From Candidatus Desantisbacteria bacterium CG1_02_49_89 (GTDB lineage Bacteria > Desantisbacteria > UBA1551), in the NCBI GenBank assembly GCA_001871075.1, contig MNUP01000107.1, positions 1 to 7,478 on the forward strand: DNA of 7,478 nucleotides. The letters run 5' to 3'. Both the position numbers and the translations under genes were made by a program. The notes beneath the pieces are model-generated. The model was not told the origin of the DNA and did not search any database. It saw nothing but the letters and a program-made list of their open reading frames with translations. Within the stretch, counting starts at the first letter, position 1. Each line of letters starts with the position of its first letter. Positions 2,138 to 7,177 of the stretch are shown here, one piece after another.

Positions 2138-2217
2138 CCACGAAAGCACTCCGCCCGTCTTTCAGCGGGCGAGACTTCGCCCACCTGTAAGGATGGGCGA
2201 GGAAAGTACGAAGAAAT
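2138..2217. repeat. Period-8 array of CCACGAAA type interrupted by a double hairpin
   Basis: CCACGAAA plus GCAC lies left of position 2150; GAAA, GTACGAAG and AAAT lie right of 2201. Removing 2150-2201 joins GCAC to GAAA and restores a continuous array of 8-base units. The array sits in the 185-base spacer upstream of the CBM9 gene. Confidence 0.65.
2150..2201. repeat. GC-rich double-hairpin element
   Basis: The 52-base element contains two stems. CGCCCG at 2152-2157 pairs with CGGGCG at 2166-2171. TCGCCCA at 2177-2183 pairs with TGGGCGA at 2194-2200. Its sequence GAGACTTCGCCC recalls the GTCGAAGATCTCGCCC-type words at 4704-4763. There is no T-run, so it is not an ordinary terminator. It is REP-like and lies inside a short-unit array with no visible target-site duplication. 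Confidence 0.65.
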
Positions 2218-4207: not shown

Positions 4208-4230
4208 TTAAATCTCCAAGCAAATATTAA

Positions 4231-4297
4231 CCACACGATTGCACAAGATTAGCCCCTGCAGCCCGCCAATAATCGTGGCGGGCTACGGCACGGATTT
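4231..4297. repeat. Period-10 array of GCACAAGATT type interrupted by a hairpin
   Basis: Units CCACACGATT (4231-4240) and GCACAAGATT (4241-4250) are followed by a 37-base palindromic insertion and then GCACGGATTT (4288-4297). The insertion falls exactly at a unit boundary and no array base is lost. Confidence 0.75.
4251..4287. repeat. 37-base hairpin element between array units
   Basis: An eight-base perfect stem, AGCCCGCC at 4260-4267 with GGCGGGCT at 4277-4284, closes a nine-base loop. It is flanked on the left by AGCCCCTGC. There is no T-run and no target duplication. It resembles REP-like palindromes and, in its AGCCCC word, the elements near 7085-7192. Confidence 0.75.
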
Positions 4298-4298
4298 T

Positions 4299-4383
4299 AA
4301 ACTTTGTAAACTTCATAAACTCTGTAAACTATGTCGAAGATCCCTCTGGGACTTTCGTAAGAAAGTAGAGGGATAAACTGTGT
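4299..4383. repeat. Period-9 array of AAACTNTGT type interrupted by a hairpin
   Basis: Four contiguous 9-base units run from 4299 to 4334. A fifth, AAACTGTGT, lies at 4375-4383, directly against the stop codon of the large GH99-like gene. The 40 bases between fourth and fifth units are a hairpin element. Deleting it restores a five-unit array in perfect register. Confidence 0.85.
4335..4374. repeat. 40-base bulged hairpin element
   Basis: The outer stem is ATCCCTCT with AGAGGGAT. The inner stem is ACTTTC with GAAAGT, closing a GTAA loop. A three-base GGG bulge lies on the plus-strand left arm only. It lies just downstream of the GH99-like gene's stop but has no T-run on that strand, so intrinsic termination is not supported. 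Together with the last array base it begins GTCGAAGATC, a word shared with 4734-4743. Confidence 0.75.
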
Positions 4384-6201
4384 TTATCCGCTTTCGCTTT
4401 GGAACCTGTATCTAAACCGCCCTGCCGGAGCAACGTCCCCCGAAACATAGAAATCCATTATGTCACCGGGCTTTTGTATGTTATCCGCCCACTTGAAATC
4501 AAAAATTAAAGGGTCTGTGGCCAACCCTAATATTTTCCTCGGAACGGCAAGATGCATCTTGTTCCCCTGAAATTTGAAATTGACGGTTCCTGCCTTTTTC
4601 CAGTTCCAGCCCTTTTCGGATTTTTCCAGGACTGCGTTATTACCGTCCAGAGGCAACCTATTAATTATAAAATCATAACCTTCCCACCCCTTGCCCTGAA
4701 CCTGTCGAAGACCTCGCCCTGAAGTTTGGGCGGGTCGAAGATCTCGCCCATCATTCTGGGTGGAAGCCTGCGAATGGTTTTTCAACTTTGAGCTTTCAGC
4801 TTTCAGCTTTGAGCTTATCAGCAGCCACATCCAGTTATTGCCCGGAGGTGAAATATCGTTTTTGGTTTCAGCGTAAAAATAAATGTTTTCTTTGTCAAAG
4901 GAAACTTTAGCGCGAAGTATGTTATTCCTCAGCGTGTCGTTCTTATACCGCAGGTTCCCGTACCCGGAATGGTCCCTGCGGACATTTCCCATATCGTGGT
5001 TTAAAAACTCCGGCTGGACCGCGTCCCACTGGTCGAAGACCCCCTTGATATCAATTGTCTTCGGCTTCTCAGGAACAGGCAGATCTTGGACGCCCTTGAA
5101 TTTCCGCACGCCCGAAACCATCTGGTAATAATAATTATCCGCGTGCCCGCCCTTCATCGGTTCTGTGTCCCTGCTGTATTCCTGGGAGAACTGGTCCATG
5201 AACTGCACGGGCCTGTCAGGTATTACTTCCTCCTTCCCCCTGCCTGCCGTCCACTCGTTCCACCCGGTCACAAACAGGAATTCGGGGTCAAGCTCTAAAG
5301 CGCGGCTCCACTGTTCCTCAGCGTTCATCCCGTAATTTATTATTTCCGGGTAAGGAGGCAATAAGGGCGCGTGCTCTTTACCGTGGTGGAACGACCTACC
5401 CCTGCAATCGCCCCTGCTCATGGACGAGGCGTTTGTAGGCACTTTTATTGTAAGGTTCTGCGCAACTGAAACAACCACCTGCTCCGCAACCTTCTCGTTA
5501 TCCTCGTAGGAATAGGGCTGCGGGTACGCGGCTTCCCAGTGCCAGGCATTGTGCGTATTCTGCATAACAAATGGCCAGTATGCTTTTCTTAGAGTGAAGA
5601 AATCCCTGAGTTCCTGTGTTACTTCTTCAGGCGGGGCAAGCAGGAGCGGCTTGCCTTTCCATTGGAACCACAGGTCTTTGTATAACCCCGGCTTGTAAAG
5701 GTTGTTGTATATTTCAAGCGCTGTTTCCCCCGCCTTTGTGTTTGTCATGAAAGCGATCTGCGGCGTGCATTCGCCTGCCTTTCGAACATCCTCAAAAACT
5801 TCGCACAGCTTCATATAAGCTTCCGGATAAGTAACGGCGTTCGTGGTGTCGAAGATCAGGGTGTCTATACCCGCGTCAGCCAGAAGATGACAGTGCTTCC
5901 TGAGCACCCAGGGGTCATCAACCAGGTAATAGCCAAAAAGCGGTTCTCCCCAGTGATGGGATGACCAGGGGGGTCCCCAGATGGATTCATCCCCGAGGGG
6001 ATTTTCCCTGTGCTCAAGCAGGATCTTTGTTACGTCATACGGGCCGTTCGCGCCTGCTTCTTTCAAATGCGTGAGAAAATAAAATATGCCCGTGAATTTT
6101 TCCTTCCTGAGAACGCGGGCTTCGTTCTGCACAGGCACTGCGCGGCCAAGCCCGTCAACAGCCGGCCAGGCAACTCCGGGAACCGCTGAAAACTGCTTCA
6201 T
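4384..6201 (-). CDS. GH99/GH71-like TIM-barrel protein with C-terminal CBM9 domain
   Basis: The protein has 605 residues from the ATG at 6201. That start has GGAGG five bases upstream, whereas the ATG at 6213 overlaps that site. Residues about 35-370 look like a GH99/WbsX-type barrel: FTGIFYFLTH (36-45), YDVTKILLEH (55-64), GIDTLIFDTT (111-120) and VTGWNEWTAG (311-320), whose GWNEW carries a candidate acidic residue, E316. Residues about 382-600 are a CBM9 domain (IDIKGVFDQWDAVQPEF, WEGYDFIINR, MHLAVPRKILG). The CBM9 is split between WMWLLI (about 457-462) and GKGWEGYDF (503-511) by some 40 residues encoded by two repeat elements. No signal peptide is visible, although related proteins and a CBM9 would suggest export. 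Probable role is glycan binding or hydrolysis; activity is unproven. Confidence 0.8.
   Translation of the reverse strand: MKQFSAVPGVAWPAVDGLGRAVPVQNEARVLRKEKFTGIFYFLTHLKEAGANGPYDVTKILLEHRENPLGDESIWGPPWSSHHWGEPLFGYYLVDDPWVLRKHCHLLADAGIDTLIFDTTNAVTYPEAYMKLCEVFEDVRKAGECTPQIAFMTNTKAGETALEIYNNLYKPGLYKDLWFQWKGKPLLLAPPEEVTQELRDFFTLRKAYWPFVMQNTHNAWHWEAAYPQPYSYEDNEKVAEQVVVSVAQNLTIKVPTNASSMSRGDCRGRSFHHGKEHAPLLPPYPEIINYGMNAEEQWSRALELDPEFLFVTGWNEWTAGRGKEEVIPDRPVQFMDQFSQEYSRDTEPMKGGHADNYYYQMVSGVRKFKGVQDLPVPEKPKTIDIKGVFDQWDAVQPEFLNHDMGNVRRDHSGYGNLRYKNDTLRNNILRAKVSFDKENIYFYAETKNDISPPGNNWMWLLISSKLKAESSKLKNHSQASTQNDGRDLRPAQTSGRGLRQVQGKGWEGYDFIINRLPLDGNNAVLEKSEKGWNWKKAGTVNFKFQGNKMHLAVPRKILGLATDPLIFDFKWADNIQKPGDIMDFYVSGDVAPAGRFRYRFQSESG
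4691..4770. repeat. 30-base tandem hairpin repeat inserted in frame in a CBM9 domain
   Basis: Two 30-base units start at 4704 and 4734, both opening GTCGAAGAYCTCGCCC and ending in a GGG-rich arm that pairs with CGCCC. Thirty bases equal ten codons, so the protein shows a ten-residue repeat (GRDLRPAQTS then GRGLRQVQGK). The left flank CCCTGAACCTGTCGAAG resembles the dispersed CCTGAGCCTGTCGAAG repeat seen in many environmental bacterial genomes. Confidence 0.8.
4783..4817. repeat. Five-unit heptamer array of CAGCTTT type inside a coding region
   Basis: Five contiguous 7-base units occupy 35 bases and encode SSKLKAESSKLK-like residues of the large protein. The same word occurs at 7275-7302 in opposite orientation, again inside a gene. 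It lies 12 bases from the 30-base tandem hairpin repeat. Confidence 0.85.
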
Positions 6202-6206
6202 ACAAA

Positions 6207-6211
6207 CCTCC
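6207..6211 (-). promoter_or_regulatory. Ribosome binding site GGAGG for the GH99-like gene
   Basis: GGAGG with a five-base TTTGT spacer precedes the ATG at 6201. It overlaps the alternative ATG at 6213, which therefore is unlikely to be used. A heptamer array begins eight bases upstream of it. Confidence 0.65.
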
Positions 6212-6218
6212 ATGAAAT

Positions 6219-6508: not shown

Positions 6509-6596
6509 CAAGTTCTTTTTTTTATCCCCAGAAGCACAGAGTAAATTATCCAGAATTCGCCTTGTTTTTCAATATCTTTATAAATAGTGCCTGTCC

Positions 6597-7046
6597 CTAT
6601 TTGCTCGGTTCCAGCAATTCAAATCCTGTCCCGGCATCTTTTTTCCGCAATGCTTTTGTTTCAAGTATTTCAAATATTATTACTTCTCCTATATGCCAAA
6701 CCTTTACTCCGCGCCGGATGCACCCGGTGCACGTTTTATCTTTTCTGCCGCAGGCAGCGTGCAGGTGGAGGATCGGTTTGCCGCTTTCGTCCGGAAAAAT
6801 TGTACCGGTGCCCGTAATTTCATAAACATCGTCCAATATAAGCTCCATGGGCTCGATCACGGCGCTCCTTCCCGTTCTTGGGCCCACGACCAGCCTGCTG
6901 TCCTTATCTGCTCCTCCGAGAATCATAACCCCCGCGGCCCTGATATTTTCTTTTATTGCCAGCTCTTCAATACACTTGTGTATAATTTCGCCGTCTTCCA
7001 GCCTTACAATAAATATTCTTCCTGTCTTTCCCTGCGAATACTTCAC
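6597..7046 (-). CDS. PPC/DUF296 domain protein with cysteine cluster
   Basis: The protein has 149 residues from a GTG at 7046, preceded by AGGAG with a nine-base spacer; no ATG competes. MKYSQGKTGRIFIVRLEDGEII opens a PPC (DUF296) domain of about 130 residues, followed by AAGVMILGGADK (37-48), PMELILDDVYEITG (66-79) and the characteristic PILHLHAACG (91-100) with H94 and H96. PPC proteins are small trimeric proteins; plant members carry AT-hooks, but here there is no AT-hook and the bacterial function is unknown. C99, C106 and C109, with H118 nearby, could bind metal with the HxH pair; this is inference. The stop codon lies inside the repeat word AAATAGGGACAGGCAC. The leader is strongly structured. 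Confidence 0.85.
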   Translation of the reverse strand: MKYSQGKTGRIFIVRLEDGEIIHKCIEELAIKENIRAAGVMILGGADKDSRLVVGPRTGRSAVIEPMELILDDVYEITGTGTIFPDESGKPILHLHAACGRKDKTCTGCIRRGVKVWHIGEVIIFEILETKALRKKDAGTGFELLEPSK

Positions 7047-7062: not shown

Positions 7063-7177
7063 CGTAAACCCCCGCGTTTACGTTAGCCCCCGCGTCTAGC
7101 CCCGACCGCAGAGTCATTAGCTTTGTTCTGACTCGCAGGTCCCTGTGTTAAGCCCCGGTTTATCGGGGCTACAGGGA
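7063..7177 (-). promoter_or_regulatory. Structured leader of the PPC gene, three consecutive hairpins
   Basis: Three stems fill the region upstream of the PPC gene. From distal to proximal they are: a bulged hairpin at 7140-7177; a stem of four plus five pairs around a symmetric three-by-three internal loop at 7104-7141 (GACC with GGTC, GAGTC with GACTC, 14-base loop); and a perfect CGTAAAC/GTTTACG stem at 7063-7082, one base from the AAAGGAG ribosome binding site. It may be a structured RNA leader or merely stacked REP-like DNA elements; no known riboswitch was recognised. Confidence 0.4.

Follow-up and report, generated by a model that had tools for sequence, protein, structure and literature searches.

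The GTAG-tagged REPs are small hairpin sequences known to occur as dimers, within genes and inside other palindromes, and the REPtrons can be absent from a species (PMC3733652). The cleavage dinucleotide of TnpAREP lies beside the REP and is CT (or CA), while the spread of the REP hairpins is described as poorly understood (PMC8266576). The genome reported here provides a rare view of the places in which such hairpins land.

The window, that is, the whole stretch of DNA analysed (7,478 nucleotides), is contig C65 of a 2.48 Mb Candidatus Desantisbacteria genome (G000) assembled in 150 contigs. The spacer at 4208-4383 consists, in order, of a period-10 array, hairpin 1, a period-9 array and hairpin 2:

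4231-4252, no strand: left part of the period-10 array (CCACACGATT GCACAAGATT AG)
4253-4288, minus strand: hairpin 1, 36 nt, a short, GTAG-tagged, REP-like form of element A, described below (reverse complement CCGTAG-CCCGCCACGATTATTGGCGGG-CTGCAGGGG)
4289-4298, no strand: resumption of the period-10 array (CACGGATTTT)
4298-4333, no strand: period-9 array of four TAAACTNNN units
4334-4373, plus strand: hairpin 2 (TCGAAGATCCCTCTGGGACTTTCGTAAGAAAGTAGAGGGA), 40 nt, TCGAAGATC-tagged, of family T
4374-4382, no strand: period-9 unit back in register (TAAACTGTG)

According to the original prediction, each array is split by a hairpin whose deletion restores the register, with an ambiguity of one base at most. 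Both arrays and both hairpins were indeed found at the claimed places, the edges derived from the families falling within 1-2 bases. Removal of 4251-4287 gives the period-10 array CACACGATTG CACAAGATTG CACGGATTTT, while the edges of hairpin 1 as given by its other copies (4253-4288) leave ..GATTAG^CACGGATT... Since these two sets of edges differ, one to two bases are ambiguous; the restored register thus holds to within these bases. When hairpin 2 is cut out (4334-4373), TAAACTCTG TAAACTATG TAAACTGTG remains. The fold of each hairpin is far more stable than that of shuffled sequence (z -3.9 for hairpin 1 and -4.4 for hairpin 2). Tandem Repeats Finder reports 4.1 copies at 78% match for the period-9 array (4298-4334) and only 1.9 copies for the period-10 array (4232-4250). 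As the latter is so short in the window, the case for hairpin 1 is weak there and was tested genome-wide; it draws its strength from the copies across the genome and not from the window alone. Hairpin-free versions of the period-10 array (CACGGATTTTAAACT..TAAACT) are present at two other loci (L014 and L039).

The spacer sequence is repeated throughout the genome, where hairpin 1 has more than 20 matches. These matches belong to element A, a double hairpin of the form GTAG-HP1-CGNAGG-YCCCTG..HP2..CTRCAGGG, the longer copies of which read CC-GNAG-HP1-CGNAGG-YCCCTGYGTTNAG-HP2-CTRCAGGG. Its two hairpins are in inverted orientation with the tags outward: GNAG-HP1 stands on the left and HP2-CTRC (reverse complement GYAG) on the right. 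A CCCGCC..GGCGGG hairpin was found in either of the two slots. The simplest reading of hairpin 1 of the window is that it would have arisen by collapse between the two slots of a two-hairpin copy. The window also carries a full-length copy, itself nested in another hairpin:

7106-7176, plus strand: full-length element A (GCAG-HP1-CGCAGG-TCCCTGTGTTAAG-HP2-CTACAGGG), enclosed by the arms of that other hairpin (AGCCCCGA and TCGGGGCT)

In an alignment of 24 copies, 98.3% of the cells pair, and double changes occupy 57 cells against 17.6 in shuffles; the stem-loop pairing is conserved by compensatory change. A covariance model of the element was used to search for copies genome-wide. In all, 73 copies were analysed in 0.73 Mb of the genome, 71 of them with distinct left flanks, and the filtered model gave 27 matches in the whole genome. 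The copies are dispersed and mainly extragenic. The left tag is GNAG in 66 of the 71 and GTAG in 38, the window copy having GTAG.

The element is confined to this genome among those searched: the filtered model, with the best candidates of each genome scored, found none in 191 others. Six further pattern matches, two in genome_contigs and four in viral_contigs, have no second hairpin and appear to be chance matches. In Rfam, no match reached the gathering threshold, and the two sub-threshold matches are chance ones.

The insertion sites of element A show a clear preference. Some loci had been drawn by searches that included array sequence, a bias of which the 27 copies ranked by model score are free. 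Among these 27, NGTG or NGT stands directly 5' of the element in 16; at random intergenic sites the share is 4.5% (p=2e-15). Array motifs lie on both sides of 26 of the 73 copies (0.7% at random intergenic sites), and the left and right flanks of one copy bridge the register in 28 of 71 (11.7% for shuffled flanks, 9.5% for random sites). The orientation relative to the array or NGTG is nearly uniform, 32 against 3 (p=4e-7). When the flanks are joined, an uninterrupted near match is found elsewhere in the genome for 41 of 71 copies, against 27% with shuffled flanks. The original prediction had called for such empty sites, and uninterrupted arrays of the same units do exist in the same genome; one of them, for the copy at L070:9709, is exact over 22 of 22 bases (TGAATTCAGTG^AACTCAGTGGC). 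No target duplication accompanies the insertions, and the joins are seamless, both at the joined flanks of element A and at the sites of families B and T described below. A general scan of simple stems against arrays gave a weak excess only (8.1% versus 1.3-4.7%) because composite elements are not delimited by it, and the family-based analysis was used instead. That arrays would serve as landing sites for the hairpins is a suggestion that finds support within limits: the hairpins lie at array positions far more often than expected, but about 40% of the copies of element A are not at NGTG/NGT arrays, and several of these are in loops of other hairpins.

Taken together, the hairpins are probably small non-autonomous REP/REPIN-like elements that were inserted into pre-existing short arrays, likely by a Y1 transposase acting in trans. 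They would enter the tandem arrays with neither loss nor duplication of bases, and element A would insert directly 3' of NGTG (or NGT) on the tag-carrying strand, a target that the arrays would offer once per unit.

It is also conceivable, though unlikely, that array and hairpin spread jointly as a composite unit, for example as copied spacer modules, with no entry into a pre-existing array at each site. The array context TTTACAAAGTT..AAATCCGTG, common to the window and three other loci (L055, L060 and L069), is what such copying would leave, and TAAACTATG is likewise common to both copies of hairpin 2. The ORF at 4384-6213 offers a similar hint, as it carries an in-frame insert in which both kinds of sequence occur together:

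4698-4815, minus strand: in-frame insert of about 38 aa in ORF 4384-6213, with TCGAAGA hairpins (4704 onwards) and a heptad TTTCAGC array (4780-4822)

The insert is missing from three homologues (38-48% identity), which are without both array and hairpins. However, element A follows at least 10 different array units, and its distribution is therefore not that of one copied module. The flanks of one copy also match each other better than they match the flanks of other copies, and many arrays built of the same units are uninterrupted. The same spacer could be sought in one genome of the same order, where neither flanking gene was found.

Insertion into pre-existing arrays would extend to two other families. 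Family B is a double hairpin of which all copies (8 of 8) lie at TTTC^GTG; the genome sample contained 33 TTTCGTGNTTTCGTG arrays. The window holds one copy:

2150-2201, minus strand: family B double hairpin, within a period-8 TTTCGTG array (site TTTC^GTG)

At another locus (L060, near 2140-2170), a TTTCGTG array is split by another perfect palindrome, TTTCGTG^TCCCGAAGGGATCCCTTTGGGA^CTTTCGTGG. Family T, which carries the tag TCGAAGAYC and includes hairpin 2, is found in the loops of REPs at CTTT^AG without duplication, and intact forms of these REPs occur elsewhere (e.g., AACTCAGGGCTTTAGCCCTGA, 11 copies). Families B and T probably insert in the manner of element A, the one at TTTC^GTG in arrays and the other within REP loops at CTTT^AG. 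For hairpin 2 itself, the predicted insertion into an array is seamless at the window, but it rests on two copies, as only two loci have the hairpin within a TAAACTATG array and the left junction is common to both. Several independent hairpin families of this genome, each with its own short target, present once in every unit of dispersed tandem arrays or in the loops of other hairpins, might perhaps form with the arrays a self-building, nested system of landing pads driven by single-strand transposases; we regard this broader idea as tentative.

It is improbable that a DDE-type MITE produced the flanking direct repeats by target-site duplication and that the arrays are old duplications. Many copies do have a near-repeat of 7-10 bp on either side, but these repeats are often imperfect, vary in length and are followed by further units. 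Typical terminal inverted repeats with a duplication of fixed length were not encountered, the lack of such duplications was partly seen outside the arrays as well, and the insertions of family T in REP loops are also at odds with this mechanism.

Repeat-rich single strands are prone to slippage and template switching. Hairpins could on that account form in place at the arrays by these replication errors, with no transposition, but we consider this quite improbable, for hairpins identical in sequence and tag recur in one orientation across dozens of unrelated sites. Least probable of all is that selection keeps hairpin 1 near arrays as a functional RNA, terminator or leader: the compensatory changes would suit such a role, but the hairpin matches no Rfam family, and its copies are nested in other hairpins and scattered over many unrelated sites of one genome only.

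The seamless insertion, the strand-specific tag, the fixed short 5' target and the one-way orientation of the REP/REPIN-like elements match the single-strand chemistry of IS200/IS605 or RAYT (PMC6006769, PMC8266576). The likely agent would be a HUH/Y1 single-strand transposase of the host genome, RAYT or IS200-like, working in trans on folded lagging-strand DNA. The genome has ten Y1/RAYT transposase genes, in keeping with the original prediction of a Y1-type enzyme. Arrays of REP hairpins of their own flank three RAYT genes (L007, L008 and L056; two on contig C23, one on C111), which makes it probable that REPs have been mobilised in this genome. Four other Y1 genes (L002, L003, L004 and L006) lie between TIRtron-type inverted repeats, e.g., GGGGACGGTTC or AATAGGGACAGGCAC; downstream of a fifth lies a related end sequence. 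In the window, a similar inverted-repeat end (AATAGTGCCTGTCCCTATT) occurs at 6580-6605 without a gene. Among the nine of the ten Y1 genes whose flanks were read, none has element A or hairpin 2 in its flanks, so that a RAYT is a putative agent of the mobilisation. The single-strand route is favoured by the seamless joins, the GNAG tag on one strand and the single orientation, but finds no support in the surroundings of the Y1 genes examined.

By its tag and dimer layout, element A matches the GTAG-superfamily REPs, BIMEs and REPINs (PMC3733652, PMC3116915). With these it shares small extragenic palindromes, an unpaired GTAG end tag, many copies per genome, frequent dimers with outward tags and some copies inside genes or other palindromes. 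A REPtron, in which a RAYT gene is flanked by the same repeat, was not found for element A around nine of the ten Y1 genes. The likeness to IS200/IS605 and TnpAREP lies in the absence of target duplication, the insertion 3' of a short target, the strand-specific hairpins and a guide-like tetranucleotide 5' of the hairpin foot (PMC8266576, PMC6006769). In contrast to those systems, the present elements are non-autonomous, the transposases are candidates only, and CT is not evident by eye at the NGTG^CC boundary of element A. As in the TIRtrons/TIRYTs (PMC3733652), inverted repeats (GGGGACGG or GGGACAGG) enclose several Y1 genes of the genome, but these repeats are unrelated to hairpins 1 and 2.

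The arrays resemble the TAACTGA-type intergenic direct repeats in being short tandem intergenic units that are patchily distributed across bacteria; however, the units differ, and hairpin insertion into arrays was not seen in the part of that account considered here (PMC4679880). Of about 264 other genera sampled, 15 have the period-10 CACRGATNNACAC array (L160-L169, L178-L207), and the reversed-pattern controls gave zero. In those genera the array often forms inverted AACCAC..GTGGTT pairs around a variable spacer, which sometimes contains a GTAG..CTGC hairpin (L179).

No description of REPs that target tandem arrays was found in the open-access literature. A clear short target, one orientation and empty sites in the same genome make the insertion rule readable and testable in terms of target, strand and transposase, and nested insertions would explain mosaic intergenic regions. 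Compared with the GTAG-superfamily REPs, element A is set apart by two different hairpin slots, varied stems, a relaxed GNAG tag and a strong NGTG target in tandem arrays.
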